From: Nautilus pompilius
Lineage: Eukaryota > Mollusca > Cephalopoda > Nautilida > Nautilidae
Direction: 5' to 3'
Length of the DNA: 64,000 nucleotides
Assembly: GCA_018389105.1 (NCBI GenBank)
Contig: JACATO010000334.1
Location: forward strand, 62,001 to 126,000
The notes under the pieces are model-generated. The model was not told the origin of the DNA, did not search any database, and was given only the letters and a program-made list of their open reading frames with translations. Shown in pieces: positions 17,901 through 57,041 of the stretch (its first letter is position 1; the number at the start of each line of letters is the position of its first letter). The translations under genes and the position numbers were made by a program.

Positions 17901-20900
17901 TCGATGCTCTATTCCAACTCCTATTTCAGGCATCACTGATGAAAACCTTGACGATGTGAAATGGTGCTTGGAGAGCAGCACGACGGAGAAGCAGGTTCGT
18001 TTCGCTGCCAAGAAGTTGTTCCACAGTTTGAACAAAGCTCGCAAAGATGTGCTCAGTAAACAGGATTACCTGAATGCTGTGCAGGAGTTGACAAATGACT
18101 CCAAAGCAAAGTCTCTCCTCTCCAATGCAGGTAAGGGAGTAACCTAGTTGTTTCTTTTAGGAGGGGGTAATGCCAGGCTTTGGAAGAGATTGCATTGATG
18201 TACCAAGGCCCAAACATCATGTTTGTAGCTTGCCAGGCTGTCATGCAAATTTCAATCAAAATATTTTTTTTCTTCTAAACCAGTGTGTAGATTTAAAAAA
18301 AAAAAAAAAGGAATCTATTTTTTATCTATTAATATTTATTCATTAAGTTTGACTGTTGACCTGGTGTGATTCCTACATAAACATTGGTAGACCTGGAAAA
18401 CATAAAAGAAAAGGCTCAACCTACTCTGTTGTTACAACTCCAAATGGTGGGACACCTTGATGAGTGTGCTAGCAACATTTTCAAAAGAACCAATCATACC
18501 TGTATGGATTTTTTAGCAGTCATAGGCTTACATAATTATCCATTAACAAGTTGATGTGTGTGTGTGTGTGAAATATGGTATATTTCACAGTGAGTTTAAA
18601 ATTGTGGTTATTGTATGTATATAGTGTTACACACACACACACAATAAATTAAGGTATAAATGAATGCAGTAACAAATAAGTAAAATGTAGTTATAAAATC
18701 AGTTATATTCAAGTGTAATCTGTTGCACAAAATAAATCTTTTTCTTATATCTGTGCAGTACAATTATTATGATGTCATTTGTTATTAAAACTGTGGACTG
18801 TATTACCACCTTTTAATAATATAATAATCAAAAGAGAACGTTGCTATATATGTATGCATGTATAAGTATGCACTACCAAATTTTTCCTAAACAAATTTTC
18901 TGTATAACTGCAGTGTGATCTAAATATACATTTTTAACTATGTTAAATGCATTTTCAGTATTTTATAATGAAAATGCCACCTAATGTTCTGGAAGTTCAG
19001 TTATGATTTTTAACCCTCCATACACCACACAGAATTTTAGCCTACCTTATATCATCTAGCCTAGCCTAGAAGCACCAGTATATGTGTTGAATTGGCTGTA
19101 TACATAGTCAATACACTTGTAATGCAAAACACGTGTAGTTGGAGCAATAGAGGTTTGTTGTTACAAAGGAATATATTAATGAGAGAACTGTCATAGCCCC
19201 TATGTCCCAACCTTTAAAGGGCAGTAGGATGCAAATGCACTGCAGGTGGTATGCAGTAATAATATTCAGTGTGACTTCCTCTGATATGGATGATTTATTT
19301 ACATCACCACTTCTTTCTGCTTACAATTTGCCTGTTCTGGAGAACTCCCTTTTATTAGTTTTCCAGAGGTTTATCAAGCCAGTGGGATATTGGGGAAGGG
19401 ATTGTAATGTTTCATGAATAACTCCAGGAGTCATTTTATGGATATGTTTACCATGTGTTCTATCAACATCTGTTTACTAACCAGACAGTTGATGATGGGC
19501 CATTGGATGCCATGTTGCATAACTATGACTATATAACTATGAATATCATGCACTGTTTCATTGGTATGCAATCAGCTGATATTTTCCATCTGAATGTGCC
19601 ACCTGTGGACAACAAATGGAAAGTGACATAATGTTAGGTTTTCTTTTATATAGTGATAACAGTTTTATGCTCCTGTCTTTAATAGTTTGATTATGATAAT
19701 AAATGTGTAAAATCATAGCATTTATTTTTTTTTTTTTTTTTGCATAAGTGCGTGTGTTTTCCAATGGTAGGGGGCAGCTGAGATATTCAGGTTTTCACCT
19801 GTGTTGCCTCTATGGGGGGTGTGTGTGTGGGTGGGGGATAAGAGCAAATGTACAACGAATCTTTATCATTTTAACTCTTCTCAAATGTTCAGAAATGCAA
19901 CAAAGAGAACACTCAAAAAGAAAAAAAAAATGCATTTTCTTATGAACAGGGAAAATGATTGGAGATGCCATCACTGAAGATAAGTTTGTCAAGACACTGA
20001 CAGAGAAAATCCAAGGAAAAATAAATGAGGAATCAGAAGAGGAATCTGAAGTGGATGAAGACTTCAACAGGCAAAGCTTTTTCACAAAGGTAATCAATCA
20101 CCTGGGAAACTGATTGATAATTAGTCTTGGAATCTATTGAATAGGCTGTTATCTTTGCATTAATGGCTCATAGTGCTGGCATCATTTCTGAGTTTTAAGG
20201 AAAAATATTTACCTTTAATTTTAAGCTCCCAATCATGCATTTTTTAAAAAGTAATACTGCCACATACTTTTTTGGCATGTATAAACATCACCCTGTTTCT
20301 CTCTTTCATTAAGAATTTATGGTGGGCTTCATTGCAGAAATAAACAATTTTTTTCCTTAGTTTGTTTGCTTTCTCCAAACATTTGAAATTTTCAGTCCTT
20401 AAAGCAGCAGTTCTTAAACTAGAGGCTACTCCTAAGGGGAGATCAGCAACAAACTATCAGTAATATATCTCTTACTCGCACCTTTCTTTCTGTTTGTTTA
20501 TTTACCTTTTTTTTTTTTTTTTTAGGTGATGAAAAATCCAGTGAAGACTGCCCAGATTTTGCTTAATCACATTCTTCTTATGGCTTCAGAGCGAGGTATC
20601 AGATGGCTCATGTCTTTCATCCCAAGAAACCAACTCTGGATTATGTTTTCACTCTTCATCTACAGCATGATTTCTCTTGAGATTTTTTTCTTTGCTATTC
20701 CGCTTGTTGTCTTCTACTTTTCATTAGCTACTATGATTATTTCTACTTTGCAGATGTTCTATGGTCGCCAGAAGTTGTCTGATATGACTGTCCTGACTCG
20801 GGTTCTGAAAGAATATGAAATTGGTGTTGATATTGATAAAGCTCAATCACAGTACTCGTGGAACTCACTGACTCCATATATTGTGTACTTTATCTCCATG

Positions 20901-22280
20901 TTTCTGACCATTGTCAGCTTTTCGATCTCAAACAAGAGCTATATTCCCTGTTCAGAGCTTTGCTTTGTTTCTCTTGTCTTCGCCATTAGCTGTTTCATTG
21001 CACTCAGTGATGAATATGACCATCTTCTGATTTTGGCTGTTCTCACAAATATATTGGCATCACTTCCATTGCTTTTAAAAGAACTTCCAGCAATTCCTGT
21101 GTTATCTAAAGTTCTTCAGATTATAGCATCACCCATTATAACTATTAATCTTGGAATAGGGCTAAAACTCCATTTTGGCTTTCCATCATTATGCTATGCA
21201 CTCCTTCCTGTTGTCTTCATTATTATGGCCATGCAGAAATCCTGGCAAGGATTTTACCGAGTTTTGGTTCCCCACCTTATCTGCTACTTTTGGTGGAACT
21301 TGATGTCTCTCTCACTATCTTTTTCAACTTGGTTTGGACTTTTCAGGGCCTCTATTGGCTACATTCTCTTGCCTGTCATTTTGCCTCTGTCTCTGGTAAT
21401 TTTTGTGGTAATTCTGTTCATTATGTTTCTTCGACTGATCCAGACCGACATCTTTAGCAAACTGTTCATCACATTGCTGCTGCTGTTGATCCCATTTGTG
21501 TTAAATCGGACCAAGACGCTGTTTGGCCTTGACTTTGATGTTAGGTACGCCAAGATAAAAAAATTCCTCATTGTCATCTTTGCTGTTGTGGCAGTTTTGC
21601 CACTCTTGTTTCTCAGTTTGTCTGATGTAGATGTGCAGAGGAAATATGAACTATCATGGAACACATATTCAAAAGTTTGTGGCTGTCCAGATACTAAAAC
21701 ACAGATGGCATGTGCTCACATGAAGGGATTAATGGTGTCTTGGTCAGGAAATATCAATCACACAAAGGTATCTAAAATCAAAAATGCCATTGATACATTT
21801 GTTTCCCATTTTCCGTATTTTCTTGCGGAGCTAATATCATGTGCCTATGGGGAATATTATGAATGTGATGCCAATGTGACAGATGTGGTTTTCCGGAAGG
21901 GCTGTAAAGTTTTAAAGCTACTCAACAGGAAATGCCACATCCACAACTATGACACCTATGGATATTTTCTAACCATAAATTCCATAGACCAGACAAAATC
22001 CCTGATCTTAAAAGCCACTCATCAATTCACACCACAAATAGAGGTACTGAAAGTTGGTGAGTTGATAAACTTCACGGCCATGTTTGATGACAACTTGAAT
22101 GGTGAAGTCCCTGTGTTGTTACTGCACCACATGACATCCCAAAGCCAGGAATTGCCCAAGATAACTCGGTTATCTGATATTACAGAGATTGTATTATCAA
22201 CCTTTCAGCAAGGATTATCTGTAATCATTCGCTTTTTCTGGTTTCCAGTTTTAGAATACATACCAGAGGAAAATAACTAA
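8910..22280 (+). CDS. WFS1: Wolframin, ER multi-pass membrane protein
   Basis: Five exons join in frame: 8910-8943, 11256-11462, 17930-18130, 19950-20089 and 20526-22280, giving 778 aa. Each of the first three introns splits a Gly codon after its first base. Wolframin sits in the ER membrane and affects ER calcium and the unfolded protein response; loss in humans causes Wolfram syndrome. Order here: a very short leader (11 aa), a Sel1-like repeat region (VQLGKHYLTLAD, LAVLWFLKASKQGNIEAT, about residues 20-75), a variable acidic helical region, then many membrane helices from about 231 to 560, and a lumenal C-terminal domain with Cys clusters and sequons NHT, NVT and NFT. Landmarks shared with human wolframin include IPCSEL, LLRASIGY-like LFRASIGYILLP, and PCHIKKFD-like KCHIHNYDTYGY. 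The human protein is 890 aa; most of the difference lies in the N-terminus. The large last exon holding all membrane helices also matches human gene structure. Confidence 0.96.
9160..9870. repeat. Cluster of simple repeats in WFS1 intron 1
   Basis: Within 700 bases lie (ATT)n at about 9176-9204, an A run at 9445-9460, (TA)n at 9642-9656, (TG)n at 9661-9681, and (ATT)n flanked by A runs at 9834-9866. No coding sequence is seen. The rest of intron 1 (8944-11255) holds another (AC)n tract at 10797-10817 and no gene. Confidence 0.85.
12660..13260 (-). pseudogene. Possible decayed C2H2 zinc-finger fragment
   Basis: On the minus strand, translated pieces in shifting frames show finger-like spacing: CEAV then LKQHARWH, and TCKKS-(x7)-YDLRIHFETGT with one Cys and one His position changed, then ICANKDPFSEE. 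An uninterrupted stretch of 97 codons covers 12798-13091, with stops and a frameshift on either side. It lies within WFS1 intron 2 in the opposite orientation. A processed or transposon-borne zinc-finger remnant is possible; chance resemblance is not excluded. Confidence 0.25.
14400..17560 (-). mobile_element. Dead non-LTR retrotransposon, I/Nimbus-like, with RNase H
   Basis: Reading the minus strand from 17560 down gives the order of a LINE ORF2. First are endonuclease-like pieces near 17480-17280 (STDNKGRTPILLKHN). Next comes a linker near 16790-16650 (MNYTLWMFSEAILGPTKL). A reverse transcriptase segment near 15760-15670 carries NTWAEDWFLYTVNVQKS. An RNase H domain starts near 15130 with WIQIYTEGSAK and continues to WIPVHGNSDGSEKDDHLA near 14855. 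A C-terminal zinc-knuckle-like HCGLLPETNDHILQNCPKF ends it near 14600. RNase H after RT is typical of the I-clade group. The catalytic DGS is EGS, and stops and frame shifts are frequent, so it is inactive. It lies antisense within WFS1 intron 2. Its 5' end and poly-A tail are not defined. Confidence 0.85.
20400..20450. mobile_element. Possible hAT terminal fragment in WFS1 intron 4
   Basis: CAGCAGTTCTTAAACTAGAG, then CCTAAGGGGAG, resembles one end of MER5/SPIN-type hAT elements. No partner end or target duplication was found, so this is at most a truncated relic. Confidence 0.25.
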
Positions 22281-24100
22281 TAGGTTTTTCACTGACACGA
22301 GCTGATGTTTTCAGCTAAAGAATTGGATTTAATTCTCATGCAGTATATTGTAAATGTATGTGTGTGTTTTTTTTACACTACTTCCTCTCTCTGATGTACC
22401 TGCTGCTGAAAAATGTTAGCACTGATTTGTGAAAATGTTAAATATATTTAGCATTCCAATTAAAGAAAACTTGCTCTTCCTCTCTGTTTTTTGTAATGTT
22501 TATTATTACAAATGCTAAACACATTAAATGGTCACTGACAGACTGGTCATATAAAATGTCCCAGCTCTTGTAAGCTGTTTTTGTACTGCAAAATAAGGGG
22601 AACTAAAGGGGGTTGAATGAGAGATCAGCATAGTGCATAAAATTGTTTATTTTTCTATTTGTAAAATTTGTTTTATTCCAAACTGCACTGGAAATTGAGT
22701 GATGGCCCTGATATTTGAAAATTCTCTATTTTTTAAAAATATTTATATTATCAAAGACAACTTGTACAGAAAGCTTTGATAGCTAGAAAAACTTGTTTAT
22801 TAGGTGGTACAGAAAAAATTGGTTTTTGGATAAATATTATAGCAATCATAAGGTTCTTGATAGAGAAAATCAGCTGTTATTGGTATGGTTTTTCAAAGAT
22901 CTAGCATTTTTATTGGTGGCCATAAAAACAGCATTTGTACATGTAAATGAAAGATCAATTTTCCATAATTGTTACTACGGAAATGCTGTCTCTCAGAGTG
23001 AAAGTAGAAAAAGCAATTTCAGAATCACCATATGAGCCTTTATGACAGGAGAGCTATGAACTACCCATAAATGATTTTAAAAGTGTCAAAAATTTTAATT
23101 TATTGAAGTTACTATTACTGGTAAGTCATTACAAAAAGTATTTTTAGTTATGAAACATTGTTTGTTGAGAGACTCCAACATTCTGCAAATTTTCAAAGAA
23201 AGACAGTATCACAGATTTTTCAGAGTGACAAGTAATGTTAAAGGAAAATTAGAAAATCGGTATGTATGTTGTCCCTCCCTCCCCAATTAAGTTCCATGAC
23301 TACGAGAAACAAATATTGTGCAATATCTACCAAGCTCTGTGTGGTAGCTAAAACTAAAACAAAAAATGTACCAAGATTTTTGTAGCAACAACCAAAAATC
23401 AAGGTAAAGGTTGCTAACAAAAATAGAAATCCTTTGTTTGTTGTCATGATTTCAAAATTGGATTTTACAAATTAAAAAGCTAATGGCTTCTGAATTAGTA
23501 ACTAAGATAACCATTGACATGTGGATATCAGTCAGTTTTAATTTATGTAGCTAAAAGGAATGCAGTGTTGGTTATGTCAGCTAGCTACTGCCTCTTGTTA
23601 ATTGCACAGCTTAAGCTTTTAAATTTTATTTTTCTAATATTTTAATCTTGTTTTCAGTTCATTGGTCAAATGAATTGGTAGTAATTTTTTAGTTATGCTT
23701 TAATAGACTATGTTGATTACCACTAAATGTGTAATAAAGGAATGTTAATACTAACAATGTTGTTGTTGTTGGAATTTTGTGTATACAGTTCCTCCTGGCT
23801 GTGTATTTTAAATTTGCATAATTTAAAGTAAGAAAACAAAAGACCTAAAAGTACCACAGCATTAATTGCCATTTGATTTGACATCCTGTTATTTATGGTA
23901 AAATATGTTTTGGTAACCCTAACCCTGTGGGCCATGTTGTTATACAACTTTGTTTTCTTGGCAATGTTTATATGATGATCTTTTGAAATGCTTGTGGATG
24001 GTGTTTGATCAGACAATTATTATTGGCTGTAATTTTGTTTGGGTTGTTTTCCCTTATTTGAAATGGAAAGCAAATAAAATCTTTGAAGCCATATGTGAAA
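22281..24100 (+). other. WFS1: 3' UTR of WFS1 (short and long forms possible)
   Basis: After the stop there is an ATTAAA at 22459-22464 followed by T/G-rich sequence, and a canonical AATAAA at 24073-24078. Either could end the transcript; the short form would leave a 3' UTR of about 200 bases, the long form about 1.8 kb. No coding sequence was seen in between. Confidence 0.45.
22459..22464 (+). terminator. WFS1: Proximal polyadenylation signal of WFS1
   Basis: ATTAAA lies 180 bases after the stop, with a TG/T-rich downstream element at about 22480-22510. Confidence 0.45.
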
Positions 24101-26560
24101 ATGTTCTATTTGCATAGGTTCCTTGGAAGTGCAGTATTTGCTTGGAACACTTCAGCCATGCATTTGCTAAGCATTGATGATTTATCACAGACACTTTTAC
24201 TGCTGTAGGCTATTAACAAATGCTGCTGCTTTAGTTTGACTTTTTGCATATGTAACTTCTAGATATATTAGATGGCATAATGGTGAAAGTTTCAACGGAT
24301 TTTCCCCTTTTCATTTCCAGGAATTTCTATTACCCAAGCTGTAAAAGACATTGGATTAACTCTTTCAGCCCAAGTTTTCCCCCAAAATATTAAATTTGAA
24401 TCATTTTCAAAATTAATGATTTTATTGGGATAGAGAAAATACCATTCCCTGGAAATTCATTTCTAGGATGGCTTAATGGAATTATCAAAATCTGGTAAAA
24501 CCTTTTCTTAAATCAGTCATTCTGAGCTTTGTTTTTGTTTTTAATGACAAAAATGAAGAAAACAGTAATGCTAATTTTTGTACTAAGCAGTCCTTTATTT
24601 TTTTTTTTTGTAGAAAATTTGCACATATTAACTAATGTCCAGGATCTGTATTATCAACTCTAGTGAAGTCTGTCTTGGCTGTTGACTTTTATGAGTTCTA
24701 AAGCTGAGTTTCCTCAGCATTGCATTTTGCAGAAAATCTTTCTTGATTGTTAGAGGATGTAGACTTGTTTGAGATGCTATGTTGTTTCAATTTGGGTTGT
24801 AAACGTGGATGGAATTAGATTATTGTCAATGATAGAGCTGTCAGAATAAAAATGATTGGTTAATTCAGCAGGTTAAAAAAAAACAAACTGGTAAGCTTGC
24901 GAAGAACTGTAACACAGACTAAGTTCTAGGATCCATTTGGCCAAACTTAAGCTTTTATTGCTACATGTAACCTTTAATTTTGTCTAACGGGTACAACTGT
25001 TGCTGCTTAATAATTATATACACAATATTATTCTTTTTTCAAAATTGATATATTTAAATGCATGTTCATATTCTCATAGTTTCTTGAAGTCTTCCAGTTA
25101 AAGGTTTTGTCCCCTAATATTTCTTTGATGACTTTCCAGTGTTTTAATGCTTATTCTAAAAAAAAATTTGTGTCATGGGAGGAAATGTTTACAACTGGCT
25201 GATGGAAAAGAGTAAGAAGAAACTGCCTTGGAGGTATGACAAACTGAGCTGGTTTCAATGTGGAATTGAACATGGGCCTTTAGCCTTGTCAGTTCAATAG
25301 TCCAATCGCATGTTTCTCTTTTTTAACATTTTAATCCTAAATATCTAACCAAAGGTGTTAAATTTTGAATTATTACGATCTCTGTATCTTAGAACATGAT
25401 AATGCTTTGAAAATTTTCGCAGTTGGTTATCAGTTTGGTTTTGTAAATGGTTCACAAGTTCATGGAACATTAATTCATTAAAATGTTTTATTAACTGTAG
25501 GCAAGTTATTTATTTAAAAATTTTTTCATCTTATCTGTTTGCTTTGTAATTGTGTTTTCCCAAGTCTATAAAGCCTCCACGAATAATTTTTGTGGTACAA
25601 GATATTTTAAATTATTGATGCCTTTGGTAGAAAGTGAATAACTTTTCTAGTGGAATCTAAACAAAAAGAATTTCATGTGATATTGGAAAGTTTGAGTATG
25701 TGCTGTAACATTAATATTTAGCCAGAAGACGAAAGTAGTAGGCAGCTTTAAGGTATACGATGTGGTGTATTAAAAAATCTAATATACAGATAAGTCAGGA
25801 CAGAATGCTGTGACGAAGATGATTAGAAGCAAAGCTTGGGCAATGATACTTTTGTCTGTGTGTAGTTAAAAGGATGTGAATCTAATATTGGACTCTTCAT
25901 CAGAGTTGATAGCTTAATGATGGTGATAGTTGTTACATCAATGGTTGACAATAAATGCTTGGGTATCTTTTCTTCTGTGGCTTACCAGTCCTATTTTGGA
26001 GCCACAGTACTGATCTCCCAGAGTTACCCATGCATGTGTAGAAACAGCACACTATTTCAGCTATATCTTCCTCATTCAAATGGCATAACATCTGGTAGAG
26101 ATCTCACTGCAGCAACTGATTAGTTAGACTACTACCAGGTCCTGTGTATACTCATGTATGTTGAAGTTTCTTTCAGGTGCCTCACCAAGACCTCCCACAA
26201 GTTCGTTTTGGGGGTATCTCCCCTGGGTGGACTGTCAAACAGGACTGCTAGTTACACCTACACACGTGTATTCTAGCAGATAGGTTTCATAGAGGATCCA
26301 ACCATTTTTTGGAGTTCACTCATGACCCTTGAGCCTCCCCTCTTTGTCAATGTGCTGCCAGCTGAGGATGGGTAGGAAGTGCAGTCCCTGGCTTGAGAGT
26401 CTACTGATGCATGGACAAAAAGGTTTTCCTCTTCAAAAACTGGACAGACCTATAAAGTATTTTCCAAAAAGCTCCATCTTTTTCCTATCAGATCACTATA
26501 TTAATTTTCGGAAAACTAGAAAGTTTCTCTTTAAATTTGATTGTTGACCAGCATTCCTTT
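24100..26560. other. Intergenic region after WFS1
   Basis: AT-rich sequence with no recognisable gene. It contains a SINE-like piece (given separately) and short open frames, the longest being 68-72 codons at 25917-26547, that match nothing I know. Confidence 0.5.
25200..25320 (-). mobile_element. tRNA-derived SINE-like relic
   Basis: On the minus strand TTGGACTATTGAACTG (25305 down to 25290) and CCATGTTCAATTCCA (25275 down to 25261) sit where A and B boxes of a tRNA-like pol III promoter would be. The flanks show no intact tRNA fold. It is probably a fragment of a tRNA-SINE. Confidence 0.4.
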
Positions 26561-27108
26561 AAAGTCAGATATGCGGGGCAAGGTGAACTCGTACGTTCCA
26601 CGTTTGTGATCACCACAAAATGTTGACATCATCAGCTGAAACAGCTTCCAGTTCGCTGCAACACACAGCCACCTAACGTTAGAGCTTGGGGGGTGGTGTG
26701 TGGGAGAGGGAGCGGTCGTTTTGAATGCGCCCTAAGTAGGGAGGGATGAATGCAGACGACACTTCGCGCTGTCATCTCAATCTAAAGGAAATGATGGCTG
26801 TCTGGATAATCCCGTTTACGAATATCTCGATCTTAATTCCAGCCACCCAGGCAAACATTTGAGCTGGGCTCTGCTAGATCTCGCCGGTTTTCGTCCTTGA
26901 GCCATGTTGAGACTTTTATACTCTGCCTATATATATATAGGCATAGTAAGATTTAAAAAAAAAAAAAATACGCAAATTTTAATTTTGAAACACACACAGA
27001 CTGCGTAATGATGGAGAGTTAAAACAAAAAACCCCAAGTTATCCCCCTTTACTGAGCTCTCCGGAGACCGGAATACAATATCGGTGAAGAGGAGAATGAT
27101 GATTAAAG
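26560..27108 (+). promoter_or_regulatory. CpG-richer promoter region upstream of the 27.1-kb start
   Basis: CpG content rises between about 26570 and 27110 relative to the flanking DNA. An 18-base perfect palindrome, GCCTATATATATATAGGC, lies at 26925-26942, about 170 bases before the start codon. The region ends in a TISU/YY1-like element. No other promoter motif is clear. Confidence 0.45.
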
Positions 27109-27115
27109 ATGGCGG
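27106..27115 (+). promoter_or_regulatory. TISU/YY1-like element
   Basis: AAGATGGCGG, the same ten bases as at the WFS1 start. Here the ATG within it opens a frame of six codons up to a strong donor, gtaaga, at 27127. That frame joins in phase with the exon at 30310-30390 to encode a microprotein. It is out of phase with the downstream hydrolase exons. Confidence 0.55.
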
Positions 27116-30100
27116 TGCTTACTCTGGTAAGAACGCGATACACAACGAGTTTTAAAAAAAAAAAACATAACAAACAAAACAGTTAATTCTTAAAGGCTTA
27201 GTTAGATTTATCTTGTTTTCTTCCATTTTTTTTTTTTTATTTTTATTACGTTGCTAGGTTTAGGGGAGGTCTGGGCATTGGCCCCGTCGGTGGAGCAGGT
27301 TGGGGATGCCAGGCGAATCCCGTTTGTGGGGGGTCCGCTGTGTCTATGATGCGACTGCTCTCTGCCCGGCTTATTTTCGCGGTAACAGGAAATGTGCAAA
27401 CCCATTAATACGGCTGCTGATTCTCGCGACTACCCAGTTTCCAGCACTTGTTGCAGGTGCGCTCCCTACTAAGGAATTCCCCGGGCGGTCCCCATAATAG
27501 TTTTAAAAAAAGCCAAACAGGGTGAGATAGGGAAATTCCTGTGCTCTAGGCCACAGAGTTAACTACATCTTAAGAGAGAGAGAGCTATGTGTGCAGTTTT
27601 GTAGGGCAGTCAAAAGATTAATTGTTGCTTTAAAATAATCCCGGCTTTGCGACTCCATCCCTTCGTGTTGTACCACCCACCAAGTTTTATGATCGCTGCT
27701 TTAACCCTTGATACTCTGTATTTTAATAGTCTCTGCTCAGTTGAAGAAAGCATCTTATCTTTACAAGGATTGGGAAACGCATACTCACGAAAATGTTCTC
27801 TTAAAACTCTTTCCTCACATGAACATACTCCAAGGGCATTTCGTAATACTTTAGTTCCTCCTCTAATGTGTTTTTTTTTTTTTTTTAAGTTGCCCTTTAT
27901 CTGCTTCAAGACTTCTGGAAGTTTATACAATTTTCAGAAATATTCTTTCTCATACTTAGATTTTTCCATTTAAATGCTTTTGTAAGAAGTAAACTTTGTA
28001 CCAACAACAGTCGCCATCTAACCTTGTTACCATAGCACCATACATGCATAATACACATTACTGGATTCCTGGAAAACAAAGTAGTCTAGGTCAGTGCTAC
28101 TCAAAGTGGTGGTACACAGAGGGGAAGATCCAGTGGGCCCAGGCCTGCCACTTAGGCTAAATATCCCTTAACAGATTTAGAGTGTATGGCAGCTACACGA
28201 CCAGAATAGATGTTATTATGAAGGTTGCAGAGGTCATTTGTCCCACTGGGGTATTCATATTATCATATAACATGTAATAACAATCATGTATTGATACTAG
28301 AGTGGCCAGGCGTCCAGCTTTTGAGCATTTTGTCCTCTGTCTGGTGACACCTCGAGCCAGACGTTAATTTGTCGTCCTTTTTGGGGTCTGACTAAAAATA
28401 ATTATATACATTTCCTTAGGTACACTTAAAACAGGGAACTGAAGTCCATAATAACTATTAACGTATTTAACTTAATTTATTCATCATAATTTTTCATTTT
28501 ATTACTTATATATACATGTTTATAATATCTTTGTTAGAAGTCTTTGCTAGTTTGATTTTTTAATATTTTTTATTTATATTGTAATAATGTATTACCTGCT
28601 TACAAAATAAATATAAAATAAAAAGTGTCAACTTTTATTATATTCATTATATTTTTCCAGTATAAATTAATATGAATACGAATTTTCAAATAATAATTTC
28701 TCAGATCGTAAACAAATAATAATAATATAGCACAAATATGGTACCAGTCCATGCACATTAGAAAAAAACCCTGCTGGTCTGCCACATCAGATAGTTTGAG
28801 AAGCACTGGTCTAGGTCCAGTATCACCACATATCTAGCCATGGGGTGATTTTTTTTTTAAAAGTGTTACTGATATAATGATGAACAGCTTTATTATTATT
28901 ATTATTATTTATGCAGTCATCAGTTTCTCACAGACAAATTTTTACATACTTTTTTGTTTTTGCCCCATTAACAGTTATTCAGGACACATTTTTTAAACAG
29001 ATTGCAGTATAAAATTTGATAGGTGATGGAAGTGGAAATTCTAGAAAAATAAGTGTCCTTGTTTGCTTTTTGAAAAAAATTTCAGCAGTAGAACATTCAA
29101 AAACATACCTGGTTTGAAGGAGAATTGATTTTGTTTATAAACTGGTTGTATCTATCTTCTTTTTTTTTTTGTAATTTTTTCTGACAATTTTAAGCTAGAG
29201 TTGGAAATCAAAGTGAGGGGCAGACTATAATAGTTGTCCTTGTGTTTTATCGGAGATATTTGGAGGTGCTTTCAAATCTGCTGATGCTTTTAATGTATGA
29301 CAGATACCAATGAATTACCAACATGTTTAACATTGATGTATTTATGAATATACAGTTGTCCCCCCCGGTATTCGCAGGGGTTACGTCCCTTGAGCACCCG
29401 CGAAGAGTGAAAAAACTGCGAATATTGGACGTGGTCCATAAAAATGCCTATAAATGTCAAAATATAACGTAAAATATAAGTAAATATATAATAATAATTT
29501 AATAAAAAATACAACACTCAGCGAAACACTTGAGATAGCTACACGCGGTAAACTGGGATGATGTGGGGCTGCTGGGCTGCATCTGCCCGAGACAGCGTTT
29601 CTTGGGCAGCAGCCAATCAGCAGCAAGGAGAAATGAATAACGCTCTCCGATTGGCTACTTTCAAACCTCCAGCCAATAGCGTTTATTTTATATTGATATT
29701 TTGCTGAATTTACGTTAGTATTTATATTACAAAATTAGTAAATTATATTGTTGTTAATAATTTAGCATTAAAAAGCCTGAAAATAAATATATTGCCACAA
29801 AAAAGCCATAAAAAATCACAGAAGATATTTGCGATTCCGCGAATATGCGGGGGTTTCCACAAACAATTATTAGTTAGGTTCTAAGGGAAATTCCGCGAAT
29901 AACCAGGGCCGCGAATGCCGAACCGCAATTACACGGGGGGTCGACTGTATTTGAAAAAAAAATGGTCAAAAACAACATTTTTGCAGAAACAAAAACTGAA
30001 AATCAGAATTTTTAAGTATAGCAAAGGGGAAGGTCTTATTTTATTTTTAGTTTAATTTTTCTATACTTAAAGCTCAAGAATTTCTCTCCAACATGTAAAT

Positions 30101-30390
30101 GCTTGAAACCCGCCACTCTGTTTAAAGCTGTCTTGTCTGTCTGTTTCATACAATATTTATTATTAGTATAATGTAAAATACGTATATATATATAGTTAGG
30201 GAGGTTTGAAGAGATCCTGATTACCAGGAGACATGTTTGTGGGAGGGGAAGCTTTCCACTCATGTAAAATACATTTTTGGTACTAGCCTTTGTTCTTTTT
30301 CTGTTTCAGAAGTATGGCTTGTTAATGCTGCATATGAAAAGGGTGAGGAGCAGTCTGAAGTTTGATGGAAAGAAAATGCGAGTTAAATAA
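27109..30390 (+). CDS. Possible two-exon microprotein of 32 aa
   Basis: Exon 1 (27109-27126) encodes MAVLTL and ends at donor gtaaga. Exon 2 (30310-30390) follows a strong polypyrimidine tract and CAG acceptor, opens with KYGLLMLHMKR and runs to TAA at 30388-30390. AATAAA hexamers lie at the stop itself and again at 30399-30404. Phases agree. The product has a short hydrophobic start and a very basic tail ending KFDGKKMRVK, so a small membrane or mitochondrial peptide is conceivable, but I do not recognise it. The TISU start, splice sites and close poly-A signal together argue for a real gene. The alternative is that these pieces are 5' exons of the hydrolase gene: ATG 27096 with exon 30310-30342 (donor gtgagg) also stays in frame into 30874. 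RNA data would decide. Confidence 0.45.
28092..28808. mobile_element. hAT-type MITE with perfect 8-bp target duplication
   Basis: The element begins CAGTGCTACTCAAAGT and ends as the inverse of CAGTGCTTCTCAAACT, so the ends are imperfect inverted repeats of the hAT pattern. It is flanked on both sides by GTCTAGGT (28084-28091 and 28809-28816), a perfect eight-base duplication as hAT insertion produces. The 717-bp interior is AT-rich and has no transposase. A second transposon-end-like stretch, GTGGCCAGGCGTCCAGC, lies inside near 28302, which may be a nested insertion. Confidence 0.88.
29353..29947. mobile_element. pogo/Tigger-like MITE, 595 bp
   Basis: Left end CAGTTGTCCCCCCCGGTATT; right end, read inverted, CAGTCGACCCCCCGTGTAAT. 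The inverted repeats are flanked by TA on both sides (29351-29352 and 29948-29949). Further inward, variants of TATTCGCGG recur in both orientations, so subterminal repeats extend beyond the ends. There is no transposase frame. Ends beginning CAGT with a C-run and a TA duplication suggest the pogo/Tigger group. The interior also carries CCAATCAG- and CCAATAG-like boxes. Confidence 0.85.
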
Positions 30391-30890
30391 AAACTGGAAT
30401 AAATTTCAATGGTACAATGGAAGATCATTGTTATAGCATCTTGTCTGGTATGGACTACTGCAGTAGCTGTTATTATAACTAGAAAATAATGTAGCAATGC
30501 TACCATGTCTTTGCGGTTGATTTTTTTCTTTTTTATTGTTTGGTTGTAAGTTGCAACTTTATTTGCTTCAAATTTGTCTTTGCTTGGAGGTAATCTCTCT
30601 ATTTGAATCCAGCTGTAATTACACAAGTTTTTTTGCCTGATTTGAGGAAATATTGAAGTAAAATTCAGTGTTTCAAAGACTACTGAGCTCTTGACTTGGC
30701 CTGTAAGATTTTGAGATGAAATCTTTATACTGCGCTATCAGTTTTCAGTGGTGTAACAAAATCAAAAGTTAATTAATTGTTAATTTTCTGGCAAAAAGCT
30801 ATAACTAAAGCAGGATAAAAAAACAAGTTCTGTTCAGAGTTGAAACTGACTCTTGTGTTCTGATTTTTGGCAGGGAGCTTGGAAGCAAAC

Positions 30891-33800
30891 ATGCCAGCTC
30901 CAGCTTACCTTTCTTCAGTGGATGACACCATTATCAGCTTCATGAGGGACCAGGACATTCCTGGAGCTGGCCTGGCCATCAGTTACCATGGTAAACTGGT
31001 GTATCAACAGGGTAAGCACCACAAACTTGTTAAAGTTCTGAATGAACAGGGCAAGTTTGTAGTAAAGTAAAATATTTAACTTGTGATTTGCAACGAATTC
31101 TGGGTTGAATAAATTCCATATAACTTTAACTTCTATCACTACTATTTATGAGTTGGTTTTAGCACTAAAATGACTAATTAACCAGTGGTGACAATTCAGT
31201 GAAATCCTAAGGTGGGGTGGCATGAAAACCTCATACTGAGGCTTAAGGATGATACCATGATTATTGGCAAGTGGTTGGGAGCATATGGAAAACATGCCCC
31301 AAAATGACTTCAAGAAGGAAAGTGGTGCTGTTTGTACAGTTGCTCAGAGGGGACAAGAATGTATCTTCTCCTCCCCATCTAATAAGACCTGTGGCCTCAA
31401 ACAAATGCAGGGAGTGATTTAGTCTGTTGTTGGCAAACTGCATTTGTTCTTCCTTTGTGTGGATGGTGGCAGTTAACTCAATAGCCAAGCACATGTGTAA
31501 AAGTATGTAAAAACTATAATCTGGTTTTAGATTTTTAGAAATACAATAACTAATATACTCAACAAGAAGTGTGGAAGGTTTTGATAAATGGAGATTTTTG
31601 AATTTAAACTCTGAAATCAAAGCAATGTGTGATCATTATCAATTTGTGATTTAAATTTAGAGAGAGATGGTTATAAATGGCTGAATTCTCTGTGCTAGAC
31701 AGATTCAACACAAACCTCTTTGTGGAAAACCAGATGGTCTTACCCTTGTAGATGGCCTTACAATGTGGAATATCATTATATGAAAAATTTGGTTTGGTGG
31801 GGATTGTAACCTAGTTAATGATGGACTATTACTTCTGCCATTTCAAATGTATTACCATGTGTCAGAAAGTTTGTCTAACTGTCTTCAGGTGTATTTTTAG
31901 TATCCATTTGAGATACTATTTGCATATCACTGGTGGGATTCAAACTGGGAACCTTTGGTTATGTTACTGACTGACAGCTATTTAAACCATTGACATCCAT
32001 CAAAATGAAACTTTGTTCCAAAAAAATAGGATAAAGTATGGAATAATGCTTAAATAAAGCTAGCTTTAATGGGAAATACTGAAACTCTAAAAAGGAGAAC
32101 TGGTAAATAAATAATCTGTTTAGGAACAAACCATATAATCAGTTTAGGTAAATAGAAATTTTTAGAGTACTTTACATATATTTTTTATCAAAAATATTTG
32201 ACAAGCCATGAAATTGTAAAACTGGAAGTAAGGGACAATTCTTTATCAAAATTAACAAAAGTACACAAATTTTTATAGGCCAAGTAGAGCAAAACAAAAA
32301 CCAAAATTGGTTTTGCATGAAAACAGGACAAAACTATCCTATTTCAATAGATACATGGATATATTTAGAAATTACATTTTAATTGGATGTTGTCAAGAAA
32401 AAATTTAATTTCCTATTATTCTCAACTTCCACCAGAGATCATGTAAAAGTAAATTTGATTCAAAGGAAGTCATAAAGAAGTTATTTGGAATAAGGATCTT
32501 TTTCCTTGCCATCTACCAAAACATCTGTTAATATTTTCACGTCTCAACTAACTACATCTCAGATCATCAGGGAAATGGAGGGGGTTGGAAATCAATGTTA
32601 TATAAAAAAAGAGAGAAAACAACTACACAAACAGCCTCAACAAATCAGCTGCAAACACAGACGGTTTTAGACCAATGGTCAAGTAGGCAGAGCCATCCAG
32701 GGCCAGTAACTTGGCAGTGCAAGAAGTCAGCAGTGGTAACAGAAGAAAACTATGTAAATATATTGTCAGCATACCTACAATAAAAATGTAGGTAGTTAAC
32801 CTGTATGGTTACAAAACTGACCTTAATTGGAACACAATATTTACTGAGATGGACAGGCAAGTTTGTATGCACAGCTTGTTATTAAAAGTGAAACAGACAT
32901 CATGTGGCCAAGATTAACAATTTACATACACAGGTATGGTAGAAGAAGTTATGGCACCATAATGCAATTTGTTTACTACAACTAGCACCAGCATTATCAA
33001 GAGGGGACATTGGTGAACGATGATACAGCTACAGCATCAAAACTGCACATTATATGATTGTAGAAATTGACATCACTAAAGTGAAAATACTTTTCTTTGG
33101 ATTCCAGGCTATGGAATAGCTGGCCCAGGCAGGAGGGTTTCTACCAAGTCTCGGTTCCGGATTGCCAGTGTGAGCAAGACTCTAACCGCCATAGGAATCC
33201 TGAAGCTCTGTGAACAGGGGCAGCTTAAGCTTGACACCTGTGTCTTTGGACAAAAAGGTAATGATGATCCAAAGAAAAACTAATTTTGTGGAAATTAAAT
33301 TTTAAAATTTATAAAAAAAAAGATATAAATAAAATTTTTATAAGACTAATTTTAATTTGGCATCTCTGTTGTGGACAGTTCTCGTGTTTATAAAAAAGCA
33401 AAAATGTCTATTTAGATGGCACGGTCATCCTCCCACAACTTGAGTGCCGTTGATGGTGGATGTTGTTCATTGCTGCTGATTTCCATGAGTAGTCACTTTT
33501 GCATGATGACAAACTATGGTGTTACGTGAAATAAAGAATGGAGATTTAAAGCATGTCTTCCCAATCAGCTTGATCCCTCTTTGTCTAGTAGAAAGGCTGA
33601 TTTGAGGACTGGAAAATTCTTAAAGGAACTTGGATGAAGTTGGGGGGGGGGGGGGGTGGTGTGATGTTGCCAATGTGGCTGTCAAATTGTTGTCTTGACC
33701 AGTATGGTATGTTAGCAGGGAATTAGCACAGTGTTTGCTGATAGGTCCCTTCCACTTGTATTACGTAATTTATAACTCTATAGTAATTTTTGTTATCATA

Positions 33801-36800
33801 TGAGTATAACATTCTTAAAATTCATTTTTTATACATTTTAGTTTAATTCAGCAGATACTCATTAATTTTTTTTTTTGTTGCTTTATATTTTTAAAACTCA
33901 TTTTCATAGTTGACAATATGTGGGTCCTGAAATAAAGGGTCCTTATAAGTAAGAAGTTACTATTATTATTATTATTATTATTTTTTTAGGTATATTATCT
34001 CAGTACAAATGCACACACAAAGGTGACCGCCGATTACATAGCATCACAATCCAGCACTTGCTGCAGCACTCAGCTGGCTGGGACAGAGACGTGTCTGGGG
34101 ACCCTGTGTTCTGGAAGCTAGGGAAAGTGATGAAAACTTTGGAACCAACCCATAGCGATACACTACTACGGTACATGATGACAAGGAAGCTCCAGTTTGC
34201 TCCAGGTTTGTCAACTCACTGTGCTGATTTAGATATGGTCCATCCCTCTACTCTATCCTCTAAAGGAGCTAATCAACCACCCCCAGAGATGCTATAAAGC
34301 ATTTCACATTGTATTGTAGGGAAGAGACATGCCTACTCCAACCTTGGCTACCAGGTGCTGGGACTGATTCTAGAGGCAGTCGTTGGCAAAGACTATGAGC
34401 AGTACATGAACAGCCTTCTTCAAGAGTTTGGGGTTGCAGAAATGAAAGTTGGCTACACCAAGCACAATCTCTGTCATGAAGATGAGGTGAACTTCATTGT
34501 CACTTGTTTTCTTTTGGTCAGAATGAATAGTCATCAAGTAGCTTTGAAATAAATACCTTTGGACACCTTTTTTAAATTTGTAGTCAAGTATTTTCATTGT
34601 CTAAGTAACCCCTAACCATCAGAATATATATATATATATTTTTTTTTAAATTGTCTATGGAGATTTATTTTTATTCTCACGGCTAAATAGTTCTTATGTA
34701 GAATTCTTGAAATCAAATGTATTCCCTGTTCATTAAAGTTGTGACTTATTGATGAACAGTTTCCAGAACAAGTATTAAAATAAAGTTTTTATGATTTCAC
34801 AGATTGGCCAACTGGTTATGGTTGGTGGTTGGAGCTGCAGTCACAAGTTCCAACCACAGCATCCATCTGTGCAGCTACAGTGTCTGGTTTATCAGTAATG
34901 TCTCAAATATAAATTGTATCTTCTGAATTTCCATCTTTGTTGTGTTTGAAGTGGGTGACATAAGTGATATCTATGCAATGCCAATGTTGAGTCTGACTTA
35001 AAGGCAAATGAAAGAAATGAGTGATGAGGTAGTTTGTGAATAGTATATTTAGTCCGGAGATAGCTGATCGCAAACAAAATGCTAACCCTGTCCTCCATTT
35101 GCAATTTACAGCCACAAGATGTATGTTGTCCACTACCAAGCTTTGCAATTGCTGTTGTTGGCATGGCAGCATTTGGAGTATTATCATTGGAGACTGTTTC
35201 AGTCTCTTTGAAAGCATTAAAAAAAAATTCAGTTGATTTAATAAGCAAATTTTTGTACCACAACTTTCAACTCATTTTGTTAGAGGTTTTAACTCTTGAA
35301 ACTTCACACACTGCATGATTCCTTTCCTTGTTCAGAATTATTTTCTGGCTGAACAAATTTCTAGCCACTTCATTTGTGATGTCATATAATATGGATAGGA
35401 CAGGTGTGTTCTAATGATATGAAAGATTGTTCATTTTTCTGTTTCCATTTTAAGCTAACTAATATAATTTGCACCTGTATTAGAATCAGTAAAAACCAGT
35501 ATACTGTATTTAATTTTTCACATGATGTAAGCGTGTACTCGTTTCCTTGGGCTAATGGATCTTCATGGAAGAACCATGGCCTGTATCCCTTTCCAATTTT
35601 GCATAGGAAAAGCGGCTCTCCTCCGATGGAGGTCTAGTAGCAGTTATCTTTACCACCTAAAATATGGAAATAACCCATTTAGATAACCTAAATGGTTACC
35701 TCTGCATAATGTCAATATCAAGTATCTATAATGGTTAAATAACCTGTAAATAATGTCATCACTTTTGCATAATTTGGGACTGAAAGCTTACCATTCTAAA
35801 TTAAGCCACACACGAGGTAAAATTGGTGAGGGGTGTGGTAAATGAACTTGTTCTCTGATTGCAGCTTCTTTTTTCATATTACCCAGTGCGCGCACAGCCA
35901 GTGATGGCCCCCAGAAATAACAAAAAATCGTGCTCATATATACATCAACACTGTACTTCTTCCAAATGTCTGCTGCTGACTCCTGGGGAGGGGGGACTAC
36001 AAAACGGTATGGGTTTCTATCTGTTAACATTATTATGCAAACTCAGCAAATTTTAGAAAATTCTGCGGTAATGTAAAATTCTGGCTGCATCTGTACAATC
36101 TATGCAAACTACTCCATGGCCATTTGGCTGATTCTGTTTTTCTGTAATTACAAAATTACTAGGAATTTTTTAAAAAAGAAACTAAGACAAAGCACAAAAA
36201 AAAGTTTGATTAGCAGGAAATGTGGCCATAAGTTACTAGCAGGTAGTTTTACAATGCTTTGCTACATAACTCTAGGTTTATGATGCTGAGCACACCAAGG
36301 TATGCATCCTTTAAAGCAATTTTAAAATTTGTTAAGCCAAGCCAGTGATAAGATTTGGCTTCATTCCACTTTTCATGGTGACAATTTTATATATATTTTT
36401 TTAGCTTTAATTTCTTTTTACATGATATTTTAATCCAATTAAGCCATTTGCTTACTATGAACAGTACATTTCCTAATATTGGTTTTTCTTCGGTGGTGAT
36501 CATAGAAAGATCATAATTACTGTTTTTCAGGTTGATTACTTTCAAAACAGGCTGCCCCTTCTGAAATCATCGATCTACCCCAATGAAGGTTTAATTGCAC
36601 CCCAGTATGGCTCCTTCATGATGGAGGAGACAGGGCCTTATGGTGGATGGGTTGCATCGCCGACTGATTTAGTTCGCATATTTGATGGGTTGAGTGGGGA
36701 CTCATTTTTTCTTAAACCAGACACGGTGAAGCTAATGCTCTCAAGGCCAACCTATGAGACTGGCCATGAATGGTATGGATTTGGTCTTGATGTGCAGGAT

Positions 36801-37805
36801 GACGGTTTGACCTGGGGTCACACAGGAGCTATGGAAGGGACATCGTGCACAGTTATGCACCACAAAAGTGGACTGACATGGGCATTACTGTTTAATGCCT
36901 GGTCCAAGGACATGGATATTGATGGCCTGATGAAATACTCTCTCAGTGGGGTGAAATGTTGGCCTCTTGTATATGAACCCTGGTCATGGTCAGATGATTT
37001 TGACATCTTATACAAAAATTCACAGCAGGGAGTAAAACTTTTGCTAGCTCACCATGATCTTCAGACTCATTTGCACAAGATGACATTGCTTGACTATAGA
37101 ATAACATGGATTAATGCAGTGACTTGGCAGAATAAGCTTTACTTCAACATCATCTGGACTAAAGATATGCTGTCTTGGTATGTTGTCTTTGACGTGGGGA
37201 AAGAAGACTTTGGTGAAACCATTGAGGCTGCAAGGAGCAGTGGTTATTCTGTACATTTATTGGAGGCCTATGCAGTTTCTCAGAGACTGCTCCATATCAT
37301 AGTTTTTGGTAAATCAGCACAATCATCACAAATTGTTCACTGCCTTAAAACCCTGGAAGCACATCTTCAGAATGTGAAACATTTAAAATATGAGGGCTAC
37401 ATTTTAACTGTTCAGTCAGTAATTAGCATCAGCAGTGGGCTGTTTGTGTCATCAGTTTTTGAAAGAGACACTTCATCTATCTCTGTTCACTGGGTTGGGA
37501 TCTCTCCGGACTGTTTTCAGTATGAGGTATCCAAGCAGGCAAAAAGAAAACTGGGTCTGGTGTACTTGAAATTCTACGATAATGAAGACACTATCTGTGT
37601 CAGTGCTGTATGGTCATCGAGAACTGAGAGCGTGCACTGGCAACGATATGATGTTTCCTGGTATGGCTTCATGTACGAGTTACGACAATGTGCTGAAAAA
37701 AATCTCCCACTCTACGCCTTATGCTCCTATCCAAATGAGGGCGTCATGAATTTTTCTGCCGTTTGGCTGCCTAGTAAATCCACTGGGGTTGTTGGACAGC
37801 TTTAG
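30891..37805 (+). CDS. Serine beta-lactamase-fold hydrolase with BTRD1-like repeats
   Basis: Exons: 30874-31011, 33108-33257, 33990-34205, 34320-34486 and 36531-37805; all phases fit. From ATG 30891 the product is 642 aa. The beta-lactamase/penicillin-binding-protein fold occupies about residues 1-370, with the three signature motifs intact: S61-V-S-K64, Y168-S-N170 and H315-T-G317. By analogy with class C and LACTB-type enzymes it should be a serine hydrolase; the substrate is unknown. Residues 378-630 form five back-to-back units of 50-51 residues, each ending in a hydrophobic strand such as VCVSAVW- or MNFSAVW-like, resembling the bacterial tandem repeat domain (BTRD1, PF17660). No signal peptide or membrane helix is seen. 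The first exon reads open upstream of ATG 30891, so a longer N-terminus via 30310-30342 and ATG 27096 remains possible. The domain pairing is known to me from bacteria, which suggests old lateral transfer. Confidence 0.92.
31880..32000 (-). mobile_element. tRNA-derived SINE-like relic in a hydrolase intron
   Basis: On the minus strand a B-box-like CCAGTTTGAATCCC lies at 31948 down to 31935, with an A-box-like CAATGGTTTAAATAGCT at 31992 down to 31976. Spacing fits a tRNA-like promoter. Base pairing for a complete tRNA is lacking. Confidence 0.42.
33961..33989 (+). repeat. (ATT)n microsatellite forming the splice acceptor tract
   Basis: About six ATT units and a T7 run lead straight into the AG that begins the hydrolase exon at 33990, so the polypyrimidine tract is made of a length-variable repeat. 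A separate run of about 17 G's lies at 33642-33656 in the same intron. Confidence 0.8.
37008..37766 (+). repeat. Five protein-coding repeats of 50-51 codons
   Basis: Units at 37008-37157, 37158-37307, 37308-37460, 37461-37613 and 37614-37766. Each reads: polar start, a W/Y-containing stretch, a helix, a short hydrophobic GY-like or LY-like segment, and a final strand ending in W or F. The endings are YFNIIW, LLHIIVF, LFVSSVF, ICVSAVW and MNFSAVW. The repeats are recognised at protein level only; the DNA copies are too diverged to see directly, so the array is old. All five lie in one exon. Confidence 0.85.
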
Positions 37806-37930: not shown

Positions 37931-37936
37931 AATAAA
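37931..37936 (+). terminator. Polyadenylation signal of the hydrolase gene
   Basis: AATAAA lies 126 bases after the stop, with TTTTTTCTCCTCTTTGTT just downstream. This gives a short 3' UTR of about 150 bases. Confidence 0.65.
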
Positions 37937-55826: not shown

Positions 55827-57041
55827 TTAAGTTGTTACAAACGTCTTGTCGTCTTTTTTTTTTTTTAAACCACAATAATGAGATTTCATATCATTGCTGT
55901 CCATTACAATGCACTTTTGCCAAAGATTTACAAGCGCATTCACATCATTTTGAAAAAATCTGGATTTCTGGAGTCAATAAACTGTAGGAAGGCAGTTTCA
56001 ATCGCTGCTTGGTTGGAGGAGGATTTCATACGGAGGAAGCTGTCAAGGTGTTTGAAAAGGTGGTAGTCCGTGAACAAAAGGTCTGGTGAATAGGCTGGGT
56101 CAGGGAGAACTTTGTACCCCAACGTGTTCAGTTTCCGAAGAGTCACTTTTGCAACATGAGGATGAGCACTGTCGTGGAGTAGGATTGGGCCTCTTTGATT
56201 TATCAATGTCAGCTGTCATTGGGAGAGTTTCTGATGAACAACGTTTAATTCACAACAATACCTTTCAGCTATGACGGTTTCGCTAGGTGCAAGAAGTTTG
56301 TCTGGTGGACTGCAACTGGTGTCATCCACCAGACAGTGACCATGACCTTCTTTGGGTAGAGGCTGGGTTTTGGAATGTGGTTAGGCACCTTGACTCGATA
56401 GAGTCACTGTGCTGATTGTTTGCCATTATTGTCAAGGATCCATTTTTAATCACACATAATGATACAGTTAAGAAATGGGTAGTTTTTGTTTCTAATGACA
56501 AGTGAAAAGCAGATCTCCAATTGACGATTTTGTTGTTATTCATTCAACTCATGAGGCACCGTCAAGCCTTTTCACGTTACTGATCACATCAAAATGCCAG
56601 GAAATAGTTGCAGTGCTTATGTTAAGCTCTCCAGCAATTTCTCTCACTGTTTTTCTTGGATTGGCTTCAACTGAGGCTTTCAGATGGTAGTCATCACAGC
56701 TGAAAGGATGTCCGCTATGTTCCTTATCTTCGAGGCCCACATCTCCTGTGTCCTCGCCCCATGCCTGCTTAATGTTATGAGTTGCCTCGCTCACTTTGTG
56801 GCCCAGTTTGACCTCCTGAAGCAAAATGGCATTGAAAAACTTTTCTATCCATGCATCACTCAGAACCCTGAAACAAATATCCATTTAATTTTTTAGAAAG
56901 GCAGGTTTTGCATAACGTATGCCAAAGCACATGCTACAAAACAATGTATAACTTACCTACATACACCTTCACAAGCATGCAAAAGATAAACCACAAATTA
57001 ACATAATATAAAAAAACAACAAAACATTTGTAACGACCTAA
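55827..57041 (-). mobile_element. mariner element with both ends, dead transposase
   Basis: Left end TTAAGTTGTTACAAACGTCT; right end, inverted, TTAGGTCGTTACAAATGTTT; TA on both sides (55825-55826, 57042-57043); 1,215 bp. Minus-strand transposase pieces in order: helix-turn-helix region (LLQEVKLGHKVSEATHNIKQ, ASVEANPRKTVREIAGELNI), a middle part in shifted frames (KNGSLTIMANNQHSDS), then LLHDSAHPHVAKVTLRKLN and YSPDLLFTDYHLFKHLDSFL. The last two carry the second and third catalytic Asp of the mariner D,D34D triad. An in-frame loss of roughly 20 residues replaces the NERTAQRWF-type stretch, and there are stops, so it is inactive. It sits upstream of the visible VOPP1 exons in the same orientation. 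Confidence 0.95.

Follow-up and report, generated by a model that had tools for sequence, protein, structure and literature searches.

We describe a spliced gene of the cephalopod Nautilus pompilius that couples a serine beta-lactamase-fold domain of the S12 family to a C-terminal array of five BTRD1-type repeats. It lies on the + strand of a 64,000-nucleotide stretch (contig JACATO010000334.1 of assembly GCA_018389105.1, positions 62,001 to 126,000; hereafter the window, from whose first letter positions are counted). Rebuilt from the sequence, the gene comprises five exons in frame, with GT-AG borders at all four introns, and codes for 642 amino acids followed by a stop codon. The first coding exon found (30891..31011; residues 1-41) is followed by exon 2 (33108..33257; residues 41-91), exon 3 (33990..34205; residues 91-163) and exon 4 (34320..34486; residues 163-218), the latter three delimited by splice sites. 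Exon 5 (36531..37805; residues 219-642 and the stop), with 1275 bases open throughout, carries the end of the catalytic domain and all five repeats. We rejected the possibility that the gene model is an artefactual fusion: the third catalytic motif and the entire array share this one frame, and hence a two-gene reading would need to split an open exon. The exons have a G+C content of 43-52% and the introns of 32-41%, and an AATAAA hexamer resembling a polyadenylation signal (37931..37936, + strand) stands 126 bases past the stop. An acceptor AG is present at 30873, and the frame is open from there to the ATG of exon 1; a further coding exon before 30891 is therefore possible. As the model begins directly ahead of the catalytic domain, such an exon would bear on the question of mitochondrial import, as in LACTB.

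The catalytic domain and the repeat array

Over residues 10-344 the protein matches PF00144 with 168.3 bits (E 3.3e-49; cut-off 27), and it satisfies the S12/PF00144 motif order of SxxK, Y/S-x-N/T and H/K-x-G: SVSK at residues 61-64 (33167..33178, + strand, exon 2), with the nucleophile Ser61 and Lys64; YSN at Tyr168-Asn170 (34334..34342, + strand, exon 4); and HTG at His315-Gly317 (36819..36827, + strand, exon 5). In the S12 family, the SxxK serine makes the acyl-enzyme and the Tyr and Lys relay a proton, while docking of the substrate falls to the HxG strand. In a phmmer search against solved structures, the top two matches were alkaline D-peptidase and Flp, and the third was a fungal polyglycine hydrolase (7tpu, 62.6 bits).

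The region C-terminal to this domain matches PF17660 (BTRD1) with 33.4 bits when searched alone (E 4.2e-8; cut-off 23) and with 27.8 bits as part of the whole protein. The five units, all on the + strand, are located at approximately residues 384-429 (37026..37163), 434-479 (37176..37313), 485-530 (37329..37466), 536-580 (37482..37616) and 587-630 (37635..37766); the first has a strand-helix-strand-strand arrangement in the predicted model, and the first strand of the fifth is indistinct there. When scanned singly with Pfam, three of them gave sub-threshold BTRD1 matches (12.6-15.3 bits), and the fourth and fifth gave none. The self-similarity of the tail at a lag of 51 has a z of 6.1, with none of 1000 shuffles equal or higher. 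Likewise, a BTRD1 model built from bacterial sequences scores the tail at 25.6 bits through five in-register matches, each weak singly (-1.5 to 5.5 bits), against a maximum of 5.6 bits for shuffled tails (400 in all, 200 from this protein and 200 from C565, the second gene described below). Taken together, the five units far exceed what chance would produce. A five-unit barrel of approximately 50-residue units is supported by this periodicity, by hhalign, by the predicted model and by the match of that model to 7tpu; a structure search of BFVD returned no match at E <= 0.001.

This architecture parallels that of the fungal polyglycine hydrolases Fvan-cmp (PDB 7tpu), Bz-cmp and Es-cmp, which combine a serine beta-lactamase-fold domain with a five-unit barrel of approximately 50-residue repeats, a fold stated to occur in all kingdoms (PMC9912923). 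The Nautilus protein shares the hydrolase fold and, by prediction, the barrel. However, in the fungal enzymes the repeats are N-terminal and the hydrolase C-terminal, whereas in the Nautilus gene the order is reversed, with the junction inside one exon. Moreover, the third-motif Gly is replaced by Phe in Fvan-cmp (PMC9912923), whereas it is retained in the HTG of the Nautilus protein, which suggests a less narrow site than in Fvan-cmp. A secretion signal is a further feature of the polyglycine hydrolases; a simple scan of 22300-30860 found no convincing signal-peptide exon for the Nautilus gene, and one farther upstream is possible.

These results bear out much of an earlier sequence-only reading of the window, which had proposed a spliced gene of five or more exons, intact active-site motifs and a tail of five PF17660-type units; a barrel is predicted for the tail instead of a non-repetitive fold. 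The interval given with that reading, 36531..37805, covers the last exon only, the gene beginning at 30891 or upstream. Elsewhere in the window, exons of wolframin (WFS1; Sel1-like, cysteine-rich and OB-fold domains) are found upstream on the same + strand (11201-11503 and 20526-22277). A probable piece of a mariner/Mos1-like transposase is encoded on the - strand at 56552-56884, with a sub-threshold HTH_48 match, and a second - strand segment (55943-56215) is mariner/Mos1-like by eye only, with no Pfam match.

Related genes in the Nautilus genome

We uncovered one other gene in this genome with similarity beyond the enzyme part, namely a 688-residue open frame (L086:1456-3519; G000:C565, hereafter C565) with the same order of the two domains. 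Its product is 29% identical to the window protein over residues 11-430 and 27% over the catalytic domain, and one exon, with an acceptor ahead of it, spans what five exons cover in the window gene. The nucleophile column of C565 holds a Gly and its HxG columns read HQN; it is thus probably no serine hydrolase. Its tail scores 22.2 bits against BTRD1, just under the Pfam cut-off, and 12.2 bits with the model built here, and shows no significant periodicity in the lag self-similarity test. The best tree separates the two genes, which are united in 8% of the bootstrap trees; an approximately unbiased test did not reject a clade of the two (p 0.30). Common ancestry is favored by the rare domain order that they share.

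Beyond these two genes, PF00144 exons are present on seven contigs, of which the one on contig C2128 is LACTB (99.8 bits to LACTB chain 7v21). The best LACTB chain for the window protein in phmmer is likewise 7v21, with 47.1 bits, versus 237.0 for its best bacterial open reading frame (ORF), values from different databases of which only the bits are comparable. On these scores, and with a separate LACTB exon on another contig, we rejected membership of the window gene in LACTB. This separation rests on the full domain, because the SxxK exon scores both alike: with the bacterial subfamily model the exon of the window gene obtains 56.3 bits (51 residues) and the LACTB piece 56.7 bits (94 residues). 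LACTB has the S12 fold in common with the window protein and carries the motifs SISK, YST and HTG (PMC2266909). The consulted part of that 2008 survey, which recognizes four metazoan lineages of the fold with bacterial ancestry and wide gene loss, mentions no tail comparable to the five repeats of the window protein (PMC2266909). In the same genome, hemocyanin loci on contigs C557 and C1362 matched seven units each, fourteen in total, of PF14830, which we take to be a molluscan hemocyanin domain.

Bacterial relatives and the order of the domains

When a collection of 84,980 prokaryote genomes was scanned, an alignment of the window protein with four plasmid-borne relatives recovered 566 relatives, of which the best 80 are 33-39% identical and come from Verrucomicrobiota, Planctomycetota, Bacteroidota, Acidobacteriota and others; with the window protein as the single query, the bacterial genome scan found no relative. 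A viral scan yielded no relative among 39 pattern matches. SxxK and YxN are kept in all 79 bacterial catalytic relatives compared (from the best 80 of 566), and the third motif is variable, HTG being the commonest (26 of 79). Among the best 80 loci, six extend more than 45 residues beyond the match, by at most 169, and their ORFs include a single clear BTRD1 array, which lies N-terminal to the enzyme (L020); a 68-residue ORF of L009 has a marginal match (E 0.033).

We placed these sequences in a midpoint-rooted tree of 100 rows, comprising 79 of the loci (L020 among them despite its array), 16 repeat-first and one repeat-last sequence, the two animal genes as the only animals, no fungi, and two of the four plasmid relatives that carry S12; L016, with a short ORF match, and the fragment L191 were dropped. 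In this tree, 17 Bacteroidota rows form the sister group of the window gene (98/84). In 16 of these sister loci the ORFs are 414-484 amino acids long. The enzyme of L081, from a record titled as a Klebsiella pneumoniae metagenome-assembled genome, groups with Verrucomicrobiota-type rows, and the title may be wrong.

In a complementary survey centered on the repeats, PF17660 matches were found in 16 of 294 genomes of Planctomycetota, four of 396 of Actinomycetota (three over the cut-off), and three each of 247 of Bacteroidota, 240 of Verrucomicrobiota and 199 of Acidobacteriota, with phyla assigned by the title or the origin of the centre locus. We extracted 28 BTRD1 stretches, leaving out genes of G525, G1166 and G1215. 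The 30 ORFs bearing the repeats, some of them neighboring frames or contig ends, show repeats followed by S12 in 17 cases, S12 followed by repeats in one, and no S12 match in 12. A Pfam scan of 11 of the last group found an M23 peptidase domain in five, in either order relative to the repeats (L187, L197, L203 and L208 over the cut-off, L212 just under), a weak metallopeptidase match in one (L188) and repeats only in three (L186, L202 and L204). In L192, a longer frame ending in repeats adjoins an S12 frame, and the match of L189 was rejected as probably false, Pfam identifying an ATP-grasp protein with BTRD1 below the cut-off.

The fused planctomycete and Bacteroidota genes (e.g., L194, L195, L198, L199, L201 and L207) resemble the window gene in their two domains, their five repeats each and their motif columns, but have the repeats first, as do 17 of the 18 fused ORFs. 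The exception, L209 from Bacteroidota, has a full-length relative with 72% identity in one other of the 128 genomes of its order (G1470). The two share the order of the window gene and L209 is of similar length (647 versus 642 amino acids), but its catalytic domain is more distant, with 141.6 bits to the subfamily model versus 357.6 for the window gene, and its second motif is YST. Hence, the enzyme-first order, which the sequence-only reading had correctly pointed out, is rare but no animal invention. In a tblastn search of plasmids with the window tail, which returned 20 records, the one real relative was a five-repeat protein of Acaryochloris, the other 19 having E values of 0.5 or worse. 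A cyanobacterial plasmid protein (L005:3680-4603) is made up of little more than five near-identical BTRD1 repeats, with no attached enzyme.

Origin, mechanism and significance

Taking these observations together, we consider it probable that the gene is a spliced mollusc gene for an S12/class C beta-lactamase-fold hydrolase with a C-terminal barrel of five BTRD1 units, and that it is probably of bacterial origin. Its catalytic domain is of a bacterial-type subfamily. Such an origin would have involved acquisition from bacteria followed by intron gain, and is made probable by the Bacteroidota being its nearest catalytic relatives in the tree, a placement in favor of a bacterial source though short of proof. 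The lateral acquisition suggested by the sequence-only reading, perhaps an old one, finds bacterial neighbors in one tree that has no other animals and no fungi; as far as could be tested, the gene also stands apart from ordinary animal LACTB, with its lower LACTB score and the LACTB exon elsewhere.

Several observations weigh against this interpretation. The lack of a signal-peptide exon in the scanned region is a poor match to a secreted wall-digesting enzyme. Two of the five structure models were poorly predicted (43.1 and 39.9); moreover, the three rows added to the alignment for the prediction are all pieces of one bacterial relative, and exon 5 folded alone reaches a predicted local distance difference test score of 33, so that the predicted fold leans partly on that relative. 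The tail is 9-11% identical to 7tpu and 17% to its counterpart in C565. The tree contains no further animals and no fungi, both of its animal rows are on long branches, and no BTRD1 array was seen in the 17 sister Bacteroidota rows, among which the fused form was not found. The nearly equal score of the SxxK exon and LACTB slightly reduces our confidence.

The lack of arrays in those sister rows, together with their ORFs of 414-484 amino acids and with L020 as the only clear array, beside the marginal match of L009, among the best 80 of 566 loci, would be accounted for if a repeat-free bacterial hydrolase had been acquired and later joined to a separately acquired or pre-existing BTRD1 array, in which case the order of the domains carries no meaning for ancestry. 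We regard this as conceivable, if on balance doubtful: two diverged genes of the genome have the same order, which is also present in Bacteroidota, and the genome showed no BTRD1 gene standing alone, though a six-frame PF17660 search of it (727.6 Mb, 2558 contigs) gave no matches and missed even the window gene, and is thus too blunt for these repeats. Somewhat less likely still is that the gene is an old eukaryotic S12 member lost in most animals, with no lateral acquisition into molluscs. Its spliced and diverged state, the inability of the SxxK-exon score to separate it from LACTB, the stated spread of the repeat fold across all kingdoms (PMC9912923) and the four metazoan lineages with a bacterial ancestor, among which genes were widely lost (PMC2266909), would fit such descent; on the other hand, the closest sequences found are bacterial, the tree places the gene beside Bacteroidota, albeit with two animal rows as the only eukaryotes, and LACTB is a separate gene. 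It seems quite improbable that the protein has ceased to be an enzyme and now works as a scaffold or in binding, a role that may apply to C565. C565, with its altered nucleophile and HQN, implies that catalytic loss is tolerated in the gene pair, but the window gene retains each of the three motifs in full, including the third-motif Gly that Fvan-cmp lacks (PMC9912923).

If the gene encodes the active hydrolase that we favor, Ser61, activated by Lys64 and Tyr168, would attack the carbonyl of a peptide or ester while the HTG strand docks the backbone of the substrate; an acyl-enzyme would form at Ser61 and be resolved by water. Because the barrel repeatedly accompanies S12 and M23 hydrolases, it is likely to act as an exosite, holding or orienting a partner protein or a polymer that bears peptides. 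Since bacterial BTRD1 arrays are mostly borne by S12 hydrolases and next by M23 peptidases, bacterial-wall peptides or glycine-rich protein linkers appear the likeliest substrates. If it indeed has no signal peptide, the enzyme might be cytosolic and might there encounter fragments of bacteria or glycine-rich proteins of the host itself.

Word searches of the open-access literature turned up no account of an animal gene built in this way. Gigasin-6, which may carry this domain, was a further candidate for comparison; in one paper, the main text holds no word that begins with 'lactamase'. The sequence-only reading had singled the gene out as the best candidate for an undescribed animal enzyme, a status that is provisional for searches of this scope and that does not extend to the repeat fold, stated to occur in all kingdoms. 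We would also raise, as an unlikely proposal, that the gene represents a fifth, undescribed lineage of animal penicillin-binding-protein-type serine enzymes: a laterally acquired hydrolase whose barrel exosite stands in inverted order, present as an active and an inactive copy, the dead one regulating or acting as a decoy for the active one, in the molluscan processing of bacterial peptides or of a host polymer rich in glycine. The BTRD1 barrel is stated to occur in all kingdoms (PMC9912923), and an animal gene with an intact site and the barrel at the other end, along with a relative that appears to have lost its catalytic residues, would offer a clean system for separating the role of the barrel from catalysis. 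The addition of M23 peptidases to its partners in bacteria hints that polymers containing peptides are a shared target. Should the lateral origin prove true, this would be a case of a domain-fused bacterial-type hydrolase retained by an animal.
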